From Lutibacter sp. (GTDB lineage: Bacteria > Bacteroidota > Bacteroidia > Flavobacteriales > Flavobacteriaceae): a DNA stretch of 64,000 bases. A model generated the notes under the pieces. The model searched no databases and was not told the DNA's origin. It saw only the letters and a list, made by a program, of their open reading frames with translations. Made by a program: the position numbers and the translations under genes. The stretch is from assembly GCA_030683995.1 (NCBI GenBank), contig JAUXPH010000058.1:1-64000 (forward strand), in the 5' to 3' direction. This document shows positions 11,048 through 61,574 of this stretch, piece after piece (position 1 is the stretch's first letter; every line of letters begins with the position of its first letter).

Positions 11048-11202
11048 TTGTCCGGTTAAATCTTTCAAAACAATCAGGTCGCCCCGATGGGGCTTTAAAC
11101 CTAACTTTTCACAATATTCTACAAACATTTCGCTCCTACGGAGCTATTTTTAGTCCCATTTATATTGAGATTTATTAAATGTAATGGATTTTTATCGGAC
11201 AA
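11048..11202. mobile_element. MITE-like element with 14-15 bp inverted ends
   Basis: Left end TTGTCCGGTTAAAT (11048-11061) and right end ATTTTTATCGGACAA (11188-11202) are imperfect inverted repeats; the TTGTCCGATAAA type of terminus resembles Bacteroidota insertion-sequence ends, recalled and not checked. The 155 bp has no ORF. Inside are two short hairpins, GCCCCgatGGGGC (11081-11093) and GCTCCtacGGAGC (11132-11144), of the same type seen near 35.8 and 37.3 kb. Confidence 0.5.
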
Positions 11203-17958: not shown

Positions 17959-18825
17959 TTGAAAGAATCATTGCGCAAATCAAATTGGAAAACCAAACTT
18001 TATCAAATTATTTATGAAGCGGATACTGTTGCGGGAAAAAGTTTTGATATTGTTCTAATCATTGCTATTTTATTCAGTATTGTACTTGTAATGCTTGAAA
18101 GTGTTGAAAGTTTTGATGCCAAATATCACAATTTCTTAAATGTATCAGAATGGGTGATCACAATTTTATTTACCCTGGAATATTTTGCACGAATACTGGT
18201 CATCAATAAACCCCGTAAATATATTTTCAGTTTTTATGGAATTATCGATTTTCTGGCAACAATCCCTAAATATATATCGTTAATACTTGTTGGAACGCAG
18301 GCATTAATTGTGCTGCGTGCATTAAGGTTGCTCAGGATATTCAGAATCTTAAAACTAACAAGGTATTTGGGCGCTTCCATTAATTTAACAACCGCATTAA
18401 AAGCAAGCAAAACCAAAATTCTGATATTTTTATTTAGTGTATTGGTGCTCACCATAATTTTGGGCACCGTAATGTATTTAGTGGAAGGACCCAAAAATGG
18501 TTTTACAAGCATCCCTATTAGTATGTATTGGGCCATCGTTACGCTTACAACCGTAGGTTATGGTGATTTATCGCCCAGTACGCCATTTGGACAATTTATT
18601 GCAAGTTTTGTGATGATTTTAGGATATGGAATTATTGCTGTGCCTACGGGAATTGTAACTTCAGAAATCAGCAAACAAGATGATAAAATTCATACCAACA
18701 CACAATCTTGTCCGCACTGTTTGGAGGACAGCCATTTAGATGATTCCGAATTTTGTCATAAATGTGGTGGAAATTTAAATGATGAAACGAGCATTACAAA
18801 TTTTGACACACAAAGGAATGATTAA
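17959..18825 (+). CDS. Six-TM voltage-gated-type potassium channel with C-terminal zinc ribbon
   Basis: 288 aa from a TTG start. Six transmembrane segments; S4 carries regularly spaced Arg (LRALRLLRIFRILKLTRYL), and the pore loop TLTTVGYGDLSP holds the K+ filter. After S6 comes a cytosolic double-CxxC ribbon (CPHC...CHKC, about 250-275). The last residues, beginning DETSITNFDTQ, are encoded by the dispersed start-codon repeat that leads into miaA, so the tail looks acquired. Confidence 0.9.
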   Translation: MKESLRKSNWKTKLYQIIYEADTVAGKSFDIVLIIAILFSIVLVMLESVESFDAKYHNFLNVSEWVITILFTLEYFARILVINKPRKYIFSFYGIIDFLATIPKYISLILVGTQALIVLRALRLLRIFRILKLTRYLGASINLTTALKASKTKILIFLFSVLVLTIILGTVMYLVEGPKNGFTSIPISMYWAIVTLTTVGYGDLSPSTPFGQFIASFVMILGYGIIAVPTGIVTSEISKQDDKIHTNTQSCPHCLEDSHLDDSEFCHKCGGNLNDETSITNFDTQRND

Positions 18826-21441: not shown

Positions 21442-21616
21442 CTGTTTATCTTTTATTTTTTATTGGTGCAGATGCTGTTCGCTATTAATCATTCTACTGT
21501 GTATCAAAATTTGTTATGCTCGTTTCATCTGTTTAAATTTTATTTTTTAGCGGTAACAGCTGCTGTTCGCTATTAATCATTCCTTCGTGTATCAAAATTT
21601 GTTATGCTCGTTTCAT
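21439..21616 (-). repeat. Start-codon repeat, locus B (two tandem units)
   Basis: Minus-strand units begin with ATG at 21616 and 21528; the second ends on the ATG of the barrel gene (21439-21441). Each unit begins ATGAAACGAGCATAA (MKRA-stop) and carries a CATCTG/CAGATG-type arm pair around an A-rich loop. Confidence 0.85.
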
Positions 21617-23665: not shown

Positions 23666-24079
23666 TTAGATAAAACTTTCTAAGGCCAACTCGTAACTTT
23701 GGAGTCCGAAACCGGCAATAATTCCTTTTGCATTGGGCGCTATATAGGAAACGTGGCGAAATTCCTCGCGTGCGTACACATTGGAAATATGCACTTCAAT
23801 TACCGGAGTTTCAATGCCTTTTATGGCGTCGCCAATGGCAATGGAAGTGTGCGTATAAGCGCCCGCATTTAAAATAATGCCGTCGAAACCAAAGCCAACT
23901 TCGTGCAATTTATTAATGATTTCACCTTCTACATTGCTTTGGAAATAGTGCAATTCCACATCCGCATATTTTTTTTTCAAACTTTCAAAAAATTGATCGA
24001 AGGTTAAATTTCCGTAAATTAAAGGTTCACGTCTGCCAAGCAGGTTTAGGTTTGGGCCGTTTAATATTAAAATTTTCAT
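23666..24079 (-). CDS. aroQ: Type II 3-dehydroquinate dehydratase
   Basis: Third step of the shikimate pathway. 137 aa, normal length. Family motifs: ILILNGPNLNLLGRREP at the N-terminus with the catalytic Tyr in EPLIYG, LNAGAYTHTSIAIGDAI and VIEVHISN with the active-site His. The start is the ATG at 24079, which is the last ATG of the start-codon repeat; in-frame codons further upstream are repeat sequence. Confidence 0.95.
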   Translation of the reverse strand: MKILILNGPNLNLLGRREPLIYGNLTFDQFFESLKKKYADVELHYFQSNVEGEIINKLHEVGFGFDGIILNAGAYTHTSIAIGDAIKGIETPVIEVHISNVYAREEFRHVSYIAPNAKGIIAGFGLQSYELALESFI

Positions 24080-24291
24080 CTGTTTATATTTAATTTTTTT
24101 TTGGTACAGATGCAGCTTGCCCGCCTGCCGGCTGGTCGCCATTAATCATTCTGCAGTGTATCATAATTTGTGACGCTCGATTCATCTGTTTATATTTTAT
24201 TTTTTATTGGTACAGATGCAGCTTGCCCGCCTGCCGGCTGGTCGCCATTAATCATTCTGCTGTGTATCAAAATTTGTTATGCTCGTTTCAT
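24077..24291 (-). repeat. Start-codon repeat, locus C (two tandem units)
   Basis: Minus-strand units start with ATG at 24291 and 24185; the second ends on the aroQ ATG (24077-24079). Unit spacing is 106 bp because both carry a GC-rich insert (CCAGCCGGCAGGCGGGC) absent from the shorter loci. Arms CATCTGT and ACAGATG are intact in both. Confidence 0.85.
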
Positions 24292-25895: not shown

Positions 25896-26115
25896 ATGAA
25901 ACGATCATCACAAATTTTGATACTTAAAGGAATGATTAATAGCGAATTTACCTGCCGAGAGGCAGGCAGCATCTGTTACCAATAAAAAAATAGAAATTAT
26001 TCAGATGAAACGAGCATTCCAAATTTCGAAACATAAAAAAATGGTTAATGGCGAACCAGCCAGCCGGCAGGCAGGCAGCATCTGTTACCGCTAAAAAATA
26101 AAATTTAAACAGATG
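25896..26115 (+). repeat. Start-codon repeat, locus D (two tandem units), ends on xerD ATG
   Basis: Units 25896-26007 and 26005-26115; the last ATG is that of xerD. Both carry GC-rich inserts (CCTGCCGAGAGGCAGGCAG; CCAGCCAGCCGGCAGGCAGG) in front of the CATCTGTT arm. These are the most diverged copies in the window (for example ATTCCAAATTTCGAAAC). Confidence 0.85.
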
Positions 26116-32380: not shown

Positions 32381-33224
32381 AGTTTCCCTTGAGGGTTTAC
32401 TTTAGGGTAAATATATTGCTTATCTGTGTATTTGGCAATAAAATGTTTTTTTTTGAAAAATGAGCGCAACAGGGGCTGGAGATTTTGGAGCGTAGGGGAT
32501 TTTAGAGGCATTTTGGTAGTTCACAACAGGTTTCTTAGAGGCATTACGGTAGTTCGGGACAGGTTGCCACGTTATTCTTTCACTATCGCTCCATAACGCC
32601 AACGCGCCAATCCCTCACCGGCTGGTCCTATCGCTAAAAATGTTCACTGAACATTTTTTTAACGCTCTGTCCCCTCTGGTGCTCGTCTGCGACGAGTACA
32701 TACTTAAATTAGCGCATAAAATGTAGCGTTTGCAACGCGGATTACCCCCTCTGGTGCTCGTCTACGACGAGTACCTACTTAAATTAGCGCATAATATGTA
32801 GCGTTTGCAACGCGGATTACTTCATCAAAATAATGGATTCAATGTAAGTAGTTACTATGATATTATTTTTTTATTTTCAAATGATAATTTATGTTTTTTT
32901 CTTTTTTGCATCGCCCAAAAAAGAAACAAAAAATGCTAGTCTGATGATCTTTTTCTGTAAAATTAGCTCATTTTTTTGTCCACATCACCCAGACCGCCTC
33001 ACCCAACGCACTGCCAGCCGCTAGGCTCATTGGGTTGCTCCTTCGGCCTGCGCTAAAAAATAACCTATTTTAAGACGAAAAAAATCATAGGACGGGTCTT
33101 TTTTGATTTTGTTTTCAATTTGTTTTGAAATGACCTTTTAACATTTAAAATTCAATTTTTATTTATCTCCGTTACTACATCTCAATGACGGATTATTTGA
33201 GGCGGCGAAAAAGTTTAAATGATT
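32381..33224. other. 844-bp gene-free repeat region
   Basis: Contains two similar lines near 32495-32570 (TTAGAGGCATT(T/A)(T/C)GGTAGTTC, twice), the 75-bp tandem repeat described separately, and AT-rich remainder. No ORF with family signal was seen on either strand; it looks like eroded mobile or repeat DNA in the polysaccharide locus. Confidence 0.6.
32671..32820. repeat. Two tandem 75-bp repeats with internal hairpins
   Basis: Copies 32671-32745 and 32746-32820 differ at about three positions. Each has CTCGTCtgcGACGAG (or CTCGTCtacGACGAG) and GCGTTtgcAACGC hairpins, the paired-palindrome layout of REP/BIME elements mobilised in trans by RAYT (TnpA-REP) transposases. No RAYT gene is in this window. 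Confidence 0.85.
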
Positions 33225-34223: not shown

Positions 34224-35761
34224 ACGGTTCTTTTACCTAAAGCCATTAGTTTTTTTGCATAAAACAATGACTTGTTAAACTGAAGTTGCTTGTAAGGGAT
34301 TTTTAACAACCGGTATAAAAAGGAGATTTTTGGTCCTTTGAATAAAAACAAAAAGAAATATTTATAGCGGTATTCAATCACTTGTTCAGGTGTAAAATGT
34401 TTGACAATCCCATACATTACCGTAGGACTTGGAACAGGTTTAAGGAGTGTTACGGGCGTATCCAATTCCCAAGGCTGTGACTTTCGCAGTTTTCCAGTTT
34501 TTTTTGCCTCGGTTCCCCAAAAACGATAGCCACCTGCAGGGGGTTTTAAGTGCAAGTTTACTGAAAACGGATTGTGTAAAACAGTGACACCAATTTTGGA
34601 CAAAGACATACCAAAATCGCTGTCCTCCCCATAACCGCCATCAAAATTGATGTCATTTCCCTTTAGCTGATTTACCAATTCTCTTTTAACACAAGAATTC
34701 GCATTGCTGAACATTTGCGCACTTCCGCATACCCATCGCTTACTGCCAAGTTTGGCTAATTTGATCTCTAAATCATTTAAATCCTGTTTTTGATGATCGG
34801 CACGAATGTCCAGCCCATTGCAGGCTCCCGTATGATACGTTTGTAAAAAACGGATGTGATTTTCTATGAAATCTGCCGGAACTCGAATATCATCATCCCC
34901 AAAAACAATATAATCCCCAGTACACAACGCTATCGCTTCATTTCTCGCCCTGCAGCTGCCTTTGGTTTGTTGCCACTTAAGCACTAATTGAAATGGATAT
35001 TCTTTCGCATCATACAAACTTTCATTTCGTTGATCTTTAGGCGTGGCGTCAACCAAAACTACCTGGGTTGGCGGAAAAGACTGATAGGCCAAATCGTTCA
35101 GCAATTGCAAAGTGAAATCCTGCCGCATCATCGTTGGTATGATGTAACTCACTGTTGGATTTTCCACAATTGGATTCAATGCTCTCGGTTTTATCGTTGG
35201 CTTTGAATCCGTTTTCCTAAAATGCTTCTTTGCATAAAAAAAGGCCTGCCATTCTTTCCATTTCCAAAATCCTTCACGATACCGCATAAAAATGCTATGT
35301 TCCAATTTGAAATTTTTTATAAAAAAGGTATACCGGTCTTTCGCTATAATATTGATTTCTTCCTTTTCAGCTGATTTAAAAAGTTCTTTTACATACAACG
35401 GGACAGCGCCTGAGTTTCTCAAAGCATTGTAGCCAAAATCCAATGCCTGCATTTGTGGATTTTGATAATCTGCATCAAATCCGTTTAAGGTTTCCCAAAC
35501 TGATTTTCTGACCCCAAAAGCATTGGGATTGACCCTCCAGCTAACGCATTCATTTAAATTGTCAAAATCGTTCAAGTACCAAAAAAAAGTGGCCGTCTGA
35601 TACACCAATTCCGGGAAAGCATTTTTGTACCCCTGCCCAAAAGAACTGTGCCAAATATCGCCTGCCCCCAATGACAAAACCTCCAACAACTCAAAATTGG
35701 GATTGCCGGTGTACAGGATAATTTCACCAGATACTGTTTTGTATTCTTTTAAATGCTTCAT
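34220..35761 (-). CDS. Double-module GT2 protein (N-terminal remnant + complete GT2)
   Basis: 513 aa. Residues 1-190 look like the second half of a GT2 enzyme (NAFGVRKSVWETLNGFDADY, a GT2 acceptor-type motif) without its nucleotide-binding half. Residues about 200-460 form a complete GT2 domain: VSYIIPTMMRQDFTLQLLND, VLVDAT, IVFGDDDIRVP and DGGYGEDSDFGMSL. So it is either a fusion or a two-module enzyme whose first module lost its start. Confidence 0.8.
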   Translation of the reverse strand: MKHLKEYKTVSGEIILYTGNPNFELLEVLSLGAGDIWHSSFGQGYKNAFPELVYQTATFFWYLNDFDNLNECVSWRVNPNAFGVRKSVWETLNGFDADYQNPQMQALDFGYNALRNSGAVPLYVKELFKSAEKEEINIIAKDRYTFFIKNFKLEHSIFMRYREGFWKWKEWQAFFYAKKHFRKTDSKPTIKPRALNPIVENPTVSYIIPTMMRQDFTLQLLNDLAYQSFPPTQVVLVDATPKDQRNESLYDAKEYPFQLVLKWQQTKGSCRARNEAIALCTGDYIVFGDDDIRVPADFIENHIRFLQTYHTGACNGLDIRADHQKQDLNDLEIKLAKLGSKRWVCGSAQMFSNANSCVKRELVNQLKGNDINFDGGYGEDSDFGMSLSKIGVTVLHNPFSVNLHLKPPAGGYRFWGTEAKKTGKLRKSQPWELDTPVTLLKPVPSPTVMYGIVKHFTPEQVIEYRYKYFFLFLFKGPKISFLYRLLKIPYKQLQFNKSLFYAKKLMALGKRTV

Positions 35762-36080
35762 ATAATATTTTTTAATCTACAAACAGGCCGCTCCTATGGA
35801 GCTACAATTAGGGCGCTCCCCTAGAGCTACAATCAGGACGCTCCCCCTAGAGCTACAAACAGGGCGCTCCTACGGAGTTCATTTATTTTATTTTTTTTGC
35901 CTCGTAGAGGCAACCTGTTTGTAATAACAATGAAAGAACGCCTGCCATCGTATTTTTATAAGATTTGTGTGACTTCAACATCGGATATTTTTCCGCCTTC
36001 GCCATATTTTTATTGAATGTTTGTTGGTTTCTGCTAGTTCAAATGTAAGCATATCTTTTATAAGGTGTTAGCCACAGTAC
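35762..36080. other. Intergenic region with palindromic tandem array
   Basis: 319 bp between fic and the GT2 gene, dominated on one side by four short palindromic units (35777-35877) and otherwise AT-rich with no ORF. Confidence 0.65.
35777..35877. repeat. Four tandem 25-26 bp palindromic units
   Basis: Units 35777-35801, 35802-35826, 35827-35852 and 35853-35877 follow CTACAAACAGGNCGCTCC(N3)GGAG; each forms a small GCTCC-N3-GGAGC-type hairpin (some with mismatches). The same unit occurs twice at 37328-37377 on the other side of fic. Confidence 0.88.
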
Positions 36081-37189: not shown

Positions 37190-37327
37190 ATTCATTATGA
37201 TAAAATAATCACATTTTCTTATCATAACTTTATAAAATGGTAAAATATCTTGGTTTATTTATCATAGCATTTTTCAGCGGTCGTATTTTGGCTAACAACT
37301 TATATGTTTACATTAATTTAAAATCAG

Positions 37328-37377
37328 CTACAAACAGGACGCTCCTCTGGAGCTACAATCAGGGCGCACCTACGGCG
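37328..37377. repeat. Two tandem 25-bp palindromic units
   Basis: 37328-37352 and 37353-37377, the same CTACAAACAGG/CTACAATCAGG family as at 35777. The second runs over the stop codon of the next glycosyltransferase. Confidence 0.85.
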
Positions 37378-50611: not shown

Positions 50612-52663
50612 CTATTTATCAATCAGCACATTTAATATTTCAATGGCGGCTTTTGATATTTTTGTGCCCGGACCGAAAACACCCGCCACGCCGGCATCAA
50701 ACAAAAACTGGTAATCTTGTGCCGGAATTACGCCACCGGCAATCACCATAATGTCTTCGCGTCCGTAAGATTTTAATTCCGCAATTACTTGTGGCACCAA
50801 GGTTTTATGTCCAGCCGCCTGGGAAGAAATTCCCAATACGTGCACATCATTTTCTATGGCCTGTTTTACGGCTTCTTTTGGTGTTTGGAACAGCGGACCA
50901 ATATCCACGTCGAAACCCAAATCGGCATAACCTGTGGCTATTACTTTTGCGCCGCGGTCGTGGCCGTCTTGCCCTAATTTTGCAATCATAATTCGCGGAC
51001 GTCTTCCTTCCAATTCTGCGAATTTATTGGCCAATTCCTTGGCTTTTTCAAAATCTGGATCGTTTTTTATTTCTTTGCTGTACACGCCGGAAATGGATTT
51101 AATGGTTGCTTTATATCTTCCAAATACTTTTTCTAAAGCATCGGAAATTTCCCCTAAAGTAGCTCTTTTTTCAGCAGCAATAATCGCCAGCTCCAATAAA
51201 TTTCCTTCTTGGGTTTTGGCGCAATTGGTTAAATTTTGCAGTGCTTTTTGAACTTCTTCGTTATTTCTTGCTGATTTTAATGCTTTTAAACGCGCAATTT
51301 GCGATTCCCGAACGGCATCATTGTCCACTTCTAAAATCTGCAACGGATCTTCTTCTTCCAAAATATATTTATTCACGCCCACAATAATATCGCGGGTGCT
51401 GTCAATTCTGGCTTGTTTTTTTGCGGAAGCTTCTTCTATGCGCAATTTCGGAATGCCTTGCTCAATGGCTTTGGTCATTCCGCCCAGTTCGTCAACTTCC
51501 TGCAACAATTCCCAAGCTTTATTGACCATCTCTTCGGTACGTTTTTCGACAAAATCAGAACCGGCCCAAGGATCAACAGTTTTGGTAATTTTTGTTTCTT
51601 CCTGAATATAAATTTGGGTATTTCTGGCTATTCGGGCGGAGAAATCGGTGGGTAATGCAATCGCTTCATCAAGCGCATTGGTGTGCAAACTTTGCGTGCC
51701 GCCAAATGCCGCAGCCATTGCTTCAATAGCGGTTCTGGCAACATTGTTAAACGGATCTTGTTCTGTTAAACTCCAGCCGCTTGTTTGGCAATGGGTGCGC
51801 AATATCAACGATTTCGGATTTTTCGGGTTGAATTGCTTCACCATTTTTGCCCACAACATCCGTGCGGCCCTCATTTTTGCAATTTCACCAAAATGATCCA
51901 TGCCAATGGCCCAGAAAAACGACAAACGTGGCGCAAAAGAATCGATGTCCATGCCCGCTGCAATTCCGGTTTTAATGTATTCCAATCCGTCGGCCAAAGT
52001 ATAGGCCAGTTCAATTTCTGGTGTGGCGCCGGCTTCTTGCATATGATAGCCCGAAATGGAAATGGAATTAAATTTCGGCATATTTTTGCTGGCATATTCA
52101 AAAATGTCGGCAATAATTTTCATCGATGGCGTTGGCGGATAAATGTACGTGTTGCGCACCATAAATTCTTTTAAAATATCATTTTGAATGGTGCCTTCCA
52201 ACAATTTTTCTTCAACGCCTTGCTCTTTTGCGGCCACAATATAAAAGGCCAAAATGGGTAAAACAGCGCCGTTCATGGTCATGGAAACCGACATCTGGTC
52301 TAACGGAATTTGGTCAAAAAGCATTTTCATATCTTCCACCGAATCAATGGCCACACCAGCTTTGCCAACATCGCTTTGCACACGCTCGTGATCGGAATCG
52401 TAACCGCGGTGCGTTGCCAAATCAAATGCAACCGACAAACCTTTTTGGCCTGCCGCCAAGTTTCTGCGATAAAATGCGTTGCTTTCTTCGGCCGTTGAAA
52501 ATCCGGCATACTGGCGAATGGTCCAGGGCTGGCGAACAAACATGGTCGAGTAGGGCCCTCTTAAATACGGTGGCATTCCGGCAACATAATTTTCGTGTTC
52601 GAAAGAAGTTTCCTTTTCGGTTTGGCTGACAATTTTTAGTTGTGAAAAATCTTTACGTTTCAT
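50612..52663 (-). CDS. mutB: Methylmalonyl-CoA mutase, large (catalytic) subunit
   Basis: 683 aa, adenosylcobalamin-dependent isomerisation of succinyl-CoA and methylmalonyl-CoA. Substrate TIM barrel with the family motif [21 protein letters not shown] and a C-terminal cobalamin domain with DGHDRG (axial His) and the GGVIP segment. The true start is the ATG at 52663 ([10 protein letters not shown]), supplied by the dispersed repeat; the longer upstream frame is repeat sequence. Partner subunit lies directly upstream. Confidence 0.96.
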
Positions 52664-52748
52664 CTGTTTAATTTTATTTTTATTGGTACAGATGCAGTCG
52701 CCATTAATCATTCTGCTGTGTATCAAAATTTGTTATTGCTCGTTTCAT
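52661..52748 (-). repeat. Start-codon repeat, locus E (one unit) between mutA and mutB
   Basis: Runs from ATG at 52748 to the mutB ATG (52661-52663). Its first part (GATGAAACGAGCAATAACAA) is read as the last residues DETSNNKF of mutA including its TGA; its end is the mutB start. So one repeat unit makes both the stop of one gene and the start of the next. Confidence 0.88.
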
Positions 52749-58838: not shown

Positions 58839-59309
58839 CTATTTATCCAATAATTTCGGAATTTCATCTGTAACCGGAAATTTTTTTTGGTCTTTTTTCT
58901 TCATCACATTTTCAACCACTTTAAAAATTTGCTGTTTTAGCTCTTTATATTTATGGATGTAATTGGTGACTTCTATTTCTAATTGTTTATGGCTTTCCAA
59001 ATAGTTTTTGTTGCCTGAGATGCTTTCGTGTTTAATTAATTCAGCAAGAATTTTATTTTGATTGTTGATGACGTCCAACAAGGTGGTTCCTATATTTTTT
59101 TGAACGGATATCTGTTTAACTGAATCCTCAATTTTTTTGTGTAAACCTGCCACCAAAAGATCAATATAATTGGCGCTGAGCAAATGTTCCAAAAAACGGA
59201 TTTCATCTTTAATTAAATTTATTTCAGAAACCCATATTTTTGAATCGTGGTGCAGTTCATCCACGCTTTTTTCTCTTCCAAACCAATCTTTTTTTAACTT
59301 AGTTTTCAT
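58839..59309 (-). CDS. Helical protein of unknown function (paralog 1)
   Basis: 156 aa, all-helical and hydrophilic, no signal peptide. Heptad-like helices (INLIKDEIRFLEHLLSANYIDLL; LEIEVTNYIHKYKELKQQIFKVVENV). Similar in helix order to the gene at 59496 (EYAFINIELAFIKRLIKAY; YEKLEEEIFMYLQHYKNLKIRIFEYINGL). Its ATG comes from the start-codon repeat (locus F). No family recognised. Confidence 0.7.
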   Translation of the reverse strand: MKTKLKKDWFGREKSVDELHHDSKIWVSEINLIKDEIRFLEHLLSANYIDLLVAGLHKKIEDSVKQISVQKNIGTTLLDVINNQNKILAELIKHESISGNKNYLESHKQLEIEVTNYIHKYKELKQQIFKVVENVMKKKDQKKFPVTDEIPKLLDK

Positions 59310-59397
59310 CTGTTTATTATTTATTTTTTATTGGTACAGATGCAGTTCGCCATTAATCATTTCTGTGTGTATCAAAATTTGTTATGGCTCGTTTCAT
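59307..59397 (-). repeat. Start-codon repeat, locus F (one unit)
   Basis: From ATG at 59397 (ATGAAACGAGCCATAACAAA) to the ATG of the helical gene at 59307-59309. Arms CATCTGT and ACAGATG are intact. Here no gene runs into it from upstream. Confidence 0.85.
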
Positions 59398-61289: not shown

Positions 61290-61574
61290 ATGAAACGAGC
61301 ATAACAAATTTTAATACACAGTAGAATGATTAATAGCGACCAGCATCTGTACCAATAAAAAATAAAAAATAAACAGATGAAACGAGCATAACAAATTTTG
61401 ATACACAGTAGAATGATTAATAGCGACCAGCATCTGTACCAATAAAAAATAAAAGATAAACAGATGAAACGAGCATAACAAATTTTGATACACAGTAGAA
61501 TGATTAATAGCGAACCTGCCTGTCCGGCAGGCGGGCTGCAGCTGTACCAATAAAAAATAAATAGTAAACAGATG
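61290..61574 (+). repeat. Start-codon repeat, locus G (three tandem units)
   Basis: Units 61290-61379, 61377-61466 (87-bp spacing) and 61464-61574 (108-bp spacing; carries the GC-rich insert CTGCCTGTCCGGCAGGCGGG). The first two begin ATGAAACGAGCATAA, giving a MKRA-stop mini-ORF at each boundary. The last ATG is that of the hydrolase gene. Confidence 0.92.

Follow-up and report, generated by a model that had tools for sequence, protein, structure and literature searches.

A small repeat unit bound to start codons in Lutibacter sp., with a hairpin that is probably the right end of a mobile element

Bacterial genomes contain small intergenic repeats and MITEs, such as RUP, BOX, ERIC and Correia, and in RNA thermometers and other start-codon hairpins a stem takes in the start codon. 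Among the transposable elements, IS608 (IS200/IS605 family) inserts 3' of a short target that is kept in the left flank, and at both of its cleavage sites there is base pairing with internal guides (PMC5934647). REPs are palindromes of 20-40 bp with GTAG or CGTC tags (PMC3733652), and for REP/BIME sequences with TnpA-REP (RAYT) a guide pairing for the cleavage site has been proposed (PMC8266576). Also, the Rickettsia palindromic elements indicate that small mobile repeats are tolerated inside gene boundaries, according to the parts of a MITE review drawn on here, from which the term 'start codon' is absent (PMC10969869).

We have analysed a repeat found in a stretch of 64,000 nucleotides of Lutibacter sp. 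(the window). An earlier note on this DNA had read the hairpin as a stem that hides the start codon and might act as a translational switch or thermometer. The results presented below indicate that the hairpin probably forms the right end of a mobile element, short and non-autonomous, that inserts at start codons.

The repeat unit and its insertion sites

The unit has a length of about 87 nt and extends from ATGAAACGAGC, or a close variant, to AAACAG, after which comes ATG. Twelve units are found at seven loci of the window (Table 1), and a sequence-only model built from them yielded at least 102 matches in the source genome (3.08 Mb; labelled G000, the other G numbers being related genomes), a minimum given that 150 candidates were scored. 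Exact matches to CATCTGT-N15..30-ACAGATG number 8 in the window, where 100 dinucleotide shuffles gave 0.01 on average; the whole genome has 49 such places, and none for the reversed control pattern. In 65 of the 102 units the last ATG begins an open reading frame that has 60 codons or more, or that runs off the end of the fetched sequence, one of the 65 being a contig-end fragment admitted by this criterion; 22 are followed by another unit, 13 have no such frame and 2 are devoid of the 3' ATG. Five of these 13 have an open reading frame of at least 60 codons beginning within 120 nt, one of which, at +7, we take to be ruvA.

Table 1. Units of the repeat in the window, with arm positions, gene start codons and empty counterparts
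Unit	Position	Strand	Arms	Start codon of gene	Remarks
Before miaA	18782..18869	+	18836-18843/18865-18872	18870	miaA is NCBIfam TIGR00174; empty sites L101, L103, L108
First of two tandem units before xerD-type recombinase gene	25896..26004	+			
Second xerD unit	26005..26112	+	26079-26085/26109-26115	26113	XerD TIGR02225; empty site L102 (leader similar, though diverged)
Hydrolase locus, unit 1	61290..61376	+	61344-61350/61373-61379		3' ATG belongs to unit 2 as its left ATG
Hydrolase locus, unit 2	61377..61463	+	61431-61437/61460-61466		
Hydrolase locus, unit 3	61464..61571	+		61572	GC-rich palindromic insert; mismatched CAGCTGT; empty site G021, one unit in G001
Distal unit upstream of 21441 gene	21529..21616	-			
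Proximal unit of 21441 gene	21442..21528	-		21441-21439	Empty site L098
Distal unit upstream of aroQ	24186..24291	-			
Proximal aroQ unit	24080..24185	-		24079-24077	aroQ is TIGR01088; empty site L098
Unit at 52663 locus	52664..52748	-		52663-52661	
Unit at 59309 locus	59310..59397	-		59309-59307	Empty sites G014, G005

At an E value of 1e-5, with 12 candidates scored per genome, units were detected in 10 of 296 Flavobacteriales genomes and in 10 of 91 genera, the source genome being included in both counts, and the relatives in the nine other genera are diverged. The six contigs whose XerD gene is closest (95-99% identity) are titled Lutibacter sp. in four cases. In many units GC-rich palindromes of the CCTGCCGGCAGG type, some of them doubled, stand in the centre, after GCGA and before the 5' arm (e.g. 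window 61512-61537 and 24074-24290). A second module of about 89 nt, which encodes MKRLQQNHLTEKRKMLSVPFDK or similar and ends in CATTTG...CAAAT(G/A), alternates with the unit in L324, L325, L326, L327, L334 and L335 (G023) and in L084 (G000:C71:230590-230976); it has 31 matches in G023, 89-100% identical and many of them 99-100%, and appears to be a further subfamily of this element.

Related species have empty counterparts for all six window loci tested (miaA, aroQ, the 21441 gene, xerD, the hydrolase locus and the 59309 gene), and in these the native leader runs up to the gene's own ATG. For example, the empty aroQ site in L098, where the 21441 gene also has its empty counterpart, reads ATAATACTTTTATCTT (leader end ATAATACTTTTATcTT) followed by ATGAAAATT, and the filled site of the window reads ATAATACTTTTATGGT joined to ATGAAACGAG...AAACAG and then ATGAAAATT. 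At miaA the end of the upstream gene joins ATGAATAAT directly in L101, and at xerD the leader of the empty site in L102 is less similar to that of the window. The hydrolase locus is empty in G021 (CTAAAAAATGAGTTT followed by ATGAAAAGT), holds one unit in G001 and three in the window; the 59309 gene is empty in G014 and G005 and filled in G021 and G001. Filled sites retain the native leader and ATG on the left, followed on the right by the A-rich leader of the element and the gene ATG, an ATG being thus present at both junctions of the insertion. The left junction has ATGAAAC also in front of genes that begin with ATGAAT or ATGACA, and the shared part of the target is therefore ATG, at most ATGA or ATGAA. 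ATGAA is found at the 3' end of 75 of the 78 units without a following unit, as compared with 35 of 123 background genes (mechanically called first-ATG open reading frames of at least 200 codons in 12 loci, rather than annotated genes) and with 11 of the 30 genes of the window that lack units.

The dispersed filled and empty sites thus indicate that the unit is mobile, that it inserts at the start codon and that it supplies a new leader and start codon; that the repeat is mobile and bound to start codons is well supported by these observations. The head-to-tail arrays would arise because each unit begins with the same target, which lets new copies enter old ones. Orthologous units at two loci are 100% and 98.3% identical, with 95.3% identity in the upstream flank, and those at xerD show 82.6-91.3% identity against 96-98% in the flanks, with turnover of units. 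The stop codon of the gene that precedes miaA is now located within the unit (18825; window 18780-18825); at the empty site of L101 this gene terminates in ATGAATAA, which belongs to the miaA start. At L316:5322 (G017:C15:136822-136889) a unit has apparently lost its inter-arm loop (CATATG), its left half being now fused in frame to the gene, MKRAWEILKYKEMINSEQHMKK..., and in L292 (G005, hydrolase locus) a stretch resembling the 3' end of the unit stands alone before the start, aaaaataaaagatatacag followed by ATG, perhaps as a deletion remnant.

Eight of the ten unit-led proteins scanned against NCBIfam score above the cut-off, being dephospho-CoA kinase (coaE), D-Ala-D-Ala ligase (ddl), LpxD, MnmA, RlmH, MiaA, XerD and AroQ. 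The 59309 protein has no NCBIfam match, and the sole match of the product of the 61572 gene, named a hydrolase in the earlier note, is the UilS lactonase at 27.9 bits, far below the cut-off of 400. Several of the genes named by NCBIfam are usually essential, which suggests that the unit-led genes should keep working from the supplied start. The unit leader is A-rich, with A at -6 and C at -3 (AAACAG before ATG); in Flavobacterium johnsoniae adenines at both -3 and -6 favour initiation, as described in the cited part of that work (PMC6847099), and the C at -3 thus makes the leader a less than ideal start region.

The hairpin: pairing, covariation and predicted folding

The complementary arms described earlier are indeed present, CATCTGT with ACAGATG in the first unit of the hydrolase locus and CATCTGTT with AACAGATG at miaA, where the gene ATG forms the end of the 3' arm as had been stated. 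A distinct scenario results from the hydrolase locus, whose start codon had been placed in the stem: the ATG at 61377 opens the next tandem unit and reads MKRA-stop, and the ATG of the gene lies at 61572, directly behind the third unit, in which the arm is broken (CAGCTGT, 61539-61545, the single mismatch having been correctly noted). The hairpin cited for this gene therefore does not hide its start codon.

We have analysed the conservation of the stem among copies, and the arms covary within the source genome as well as between genomes; a lack of such covariation, which the earlier note had named as grounds for giving up its reading, is thus not observed. In the 101 distinct copies of the source genome 93.2% of the cells pair, against 92.1% after shuffling, and 7 cells carry changes on both sides, as compared with 0.8 for shuffled and no more than 4 for slid versions of the alignment. 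The corresponding figures for 98 copies of other genomes, taken from 80 chosen loci rather than from all loci fetched, are 95.3% against 87.9% and 43 cells against 20.0. In both sets none of 500 shuffles gave as many cells changed on both sides, whereas the number of pairs with double changes is ordinary, being matched by 71 of 500 shuffles in the source genome and by 500 of 500 in the other genomes, and further pair types are matched by 10 and 373 of 500, respectively. RNAalifold, run on the twelve window units, finds the stem with zero double changes.

Nearly all of the covariation signal resides in the pair next to the AUG, where the base before the AUG takes part in C-G, T-A, A-T and G-C pairs, and most of the change in other genomes corresponds to one step between the subfamilies CATCTG/CAGATG and CATGTG/CACATG. 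This concentration at one pair, together with the few independent events that a split between two subfamilies provides, is what would be expected if the stem were a by-product, with both arms carrying a motif that resembles the start-codon target and the covariation recording subfamily history rather than selection for pairing. However, compensated pairs occur at separate loci of the source genome, namely CATTTG/CAAATG at C16, C60 and C59, CATATG/CATATG at C65 and CATCTGC/GCAGATG at C66 and C50 (the last read by hand), and further ones are found in G017, which has its own CATGTGC/GCACATG, and in L096, where CACCTATTT and AAATAGATG pair at 8 of 9 positions (read by hand, this row being misaligned in the alignment of other genomes). 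A mere by-product is for these reasons very improbable, and the comparison of copies supports a CATNTG/CANATG stem that would be kept by compensatory changes. The covariation would fit a function in DNA or in RNA alike and cannot tell between them. The A of the AUG is mismatched in 33 of 99 source-genome copies, in 30 of them by G for T. This G, at the 5' arm base opposite the A (e.g. window 61541), is also seen in 12 copies elsewhere, and C at the same place never occurs in aligned copies, with a single hand-read case in L096. The polarity of G-U against A-C mismatches in the arms relates to few cases and is confounded by the start codon.

The pairing of the AUG was predicted by folding 64 unit leaders, with 30 control leaders for comparison, at six temperatures between 10 and 37 °C. 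In 33 intact copies the predicted pairing hardly shifts, from 0.95 to 0.93 (about 0.94), and in 15 CAGCTG copies it goes from 0.64 to 0.47; the mean decreases from 0.83 to 0.76 for all 64 unit leaders and from 0.70 to 0.58 for the 30 window genes without units, the two sets differing at 25 °C with p = 0.002. An RNA thermometer is thus rejected, as far as prediction goes, since no melting is predicted in this range.

A host translational switch would have the stem hide the AUG until it is opened by temperature, by a protein or by translation from upstream; in a variant, the CAU would have two alternative partners, the upstream AUG and that of the gene, giving two states. The strong predicted pairing of the AUG in intact copies, the excess of unit leaders over control genes and the covariation of the arms would all be in line with a switch, as would the ability of the CAT, in sister subfamilies, to pair with the left ATG as well. 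Also, start-region structure tunes initiation in Flavobacterium johnsoniae, as the cited part of the work reports (PMC6847099), and the frame opened by the left ATG stops 4 nt before the 3' AUG in 14 units (among the 70 longest of 91 rows), which offers a possible route for coupling. However, this role goes unsupported by several results besides the flat response to temperature and the mismatched A of the AUG in one third of the copies. Stems are as intact in units that do not precede genes, perfect ones amounting to 37 of 65 before genes and 20 of 35 elsewhere (Fisher p = 1.0), the latter comprising 11 of 22 before another unit and 9 of 13 before no open reading frame. The twelve unit-led proteins inspected have no obvious common pathway, and the upstream open reading frames differ widely in length (14 in 28 units, 4 in 23, 27 in 12, 11 in 8, and others) and share no common peptide, so that a conserved upstream-ORF peptide was rejected as well. 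Rfam at gathering thresholds recovers only a tRNA in the window and has no match for the unit. We regard a switch as unlikely. The stem is kept at the level of the family and not of the gene, which would point to the life cycle of the element itself, and our best inference is that the hairpin serves the element for recognition of its right end and is not a thermometer of the host. The stem may nevertheless carry a translational cost or side effect.

Guide pairing and the search for a mobiliser

The left end of the unit appears to have pairing possibilities of its own. Three sister subfamilies allow a helix at this end, in which the left ATG and the CAT of the hairpin close the stem, respectively ATG-A-AAT-GA-GCC with GGC-GA-ATT-A-CAT, ATG-A-AACATCCAT with ATGGATGTT-A-CAT, and ATG-A-AACGCCC with GGGCGTT-C-CGT. 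Beyond the ATG, the arms native to each subfamily give 7.1, 8.2 and 8.0 paired positions out of 10 (n = 8, 8 and 1; 17 units), and arms swapped among the three give 4.0 to 6.4; in this sample 6 of the 39 units supplied failed to parse, and L403, L408 and L410 had been set aside beforehand. In the window subfamily the left helix is weak, with 2.2 of 10 positions (n = 16) that include ATG/CAT, GC/GC and a tandem G-A, and its left arm pairs better with the right arms of the sisters (4.0 to 6.2). Among the 60 of 102 source-genome units that match both patterns, GAGCC goes with GGCGA in 26 of 29 cases and GAGC with GGCGA in 18 of 31, an association that fits an extra C-G pair and that could also result from linkage within subfamilies.

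We have also examined the base that precedes the target. A CATC guide calls for G, and G is what 28 of 73 native flanks of the source genome have, the background genes having it in 6 of 123 cases; in G017, where the main guide CATG calls for C, a C is found in just 2 of 31. Three units without recognisable left end, and flanks that were too short, were dropped from this count, and only G017 and the background genes were used for comparison, the native flanks of G023 and G034 consisting partly of tandem units or lying behind another repeat. Between the flank and the base that follows the left CAT there is no covariation (16 of 65, with 14.5 when shuffled), and the left CAT was for this reason rejected as a guide for the base before the target.

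In the mechanism that we propose, the internal CAT would be a guide that pairs with the target ATG and with the right-end ATG of the element, a pairing that would take place in single-stranded DNA (or RNA) in the manner of the IS608 guides, which set both ends. Copies would survive mainly where a working initiation region is rebuilt, hence the bias towards start codons, and the buried AUG would be a side effect tolerated by expression. It is conceivable, and we put it forward only tentatively, that the unit represents a novel class of element addressing start codons, in which one CAT(N) guide would pair in turn with the ATG of the host gene and with its own right-end ATG, in which insertions would rebuild the initiation region and thereby be allowed before essential genes, and in which the CAU, paired with the old or the new AUG, may give the mRNA two states that differ in the start codon used.

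The anatomy of the unit is in the style of elements that move as single strands, with a left target motif, a right-end hairpin, an internal complement to both, and no terminal inverted repeats, the left end AAACGAGC and the right end AAACAG(ATG) not being inverted copies of each other as judged by eye. This would suit mobilisation in trans by a Y1 transposase of the IS200/REP type, and matches to the Y1 transposase family (PF01797) were found in the source genome and in 17 of the 37 other genomes searched. However, PF01797 was not detected in the unit carriers G017, G037, G012 and G022, of which G017 (88% complete) has 69 copies, many near-identical, and G037 (99% complete) has 24, at least four of them near-identical. 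Also, the flanks of 15 Y1 genes, three of them in the source genome, contain other palindromes or none (16 loci were fetched and 15 read, by eye). A Y1 enzyme acting in trans is thus a doubtful explanation, decidedly less probable than not, and RAYT was rejected as mobiliser, as other palindromes adjoin the RAYT-like genes whose flanks were inspected and the enzyme goes undetected in two genomes with recent-looking copies. Palindromes other than the unit are present in the window (CGCTCC..GGAGC and CTCGTC..GACGAG types, at 35749-35887, 37300-37370, 32671-32820 and 11115-11153), and comparable ones flank RAYT-like genes in the source genome and its relatives. A reverse transcriptase (RVT_1, PF00078) was likewise rejected, as it occurs in 4 of 14 genomes and is absent from the source genome, G017 and G037.

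The unit itself contains no open reading frame of transposase size, and among the at least 102 matches there is no split copy that would indicate a larger form with an internal transposase, just partial copies at contig ends. Inspection by eye of the open reading frames around the arrays of G017 and G016 led us to recognise no transposase, and one unit searched against plasmid and phage records gave no match. None of these searches brought up an enzyme that could be tied to the movement of the unit.

Comparison with known elements

An insertion at a start codon should as a rule be harmful, and it is the leader and start codon brought along by the repeat that make it tolerable; in this single genome the initiation regions of some sixty genes have been replaced. 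The filled and empty sites constitute a natural series for measuring what Bacteroidota require of a start region, and the family points to a mobilising enzyme with a possible base-pairing rule for its target. In a narrow search of open-access papers we recognised no description of insertion at start codons or of the unit repeat.

Like REP/BIME sequences with RAYT, the unit is short and multicopy and has a hairpin of the single-strand kind, with a guide pairing proposed; unlike REPs it has about 87 nt, inserts at start codons, supplies a start codon and has no RAYT tied to it, and no GTAG or CGTC tag was seen by eye at the ends or the hairpin foot of the aligned units. The resemblance to IS608 lies in the short target that stays at the left end without any longer duplication, whereas the target of the unit is the ATG of a gene, no transposase is encoded, and a guide role is suggested by complementarity. 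With MITEs and the small intergenic repeats it shares a non-autonomous, dispersed and intergenic character, but it is strictly oriented and placed at the start codon. The Rickettsia palindromic elements sit in frame inside open reading frames, whereas the unit sits before the frame and replaces the leader. As in RNA thermometers, the stem includes the start codon; unlike them, it is repeated in front of unrelated genes, is not predicted to melt, and is mismatched in a third of the copies.
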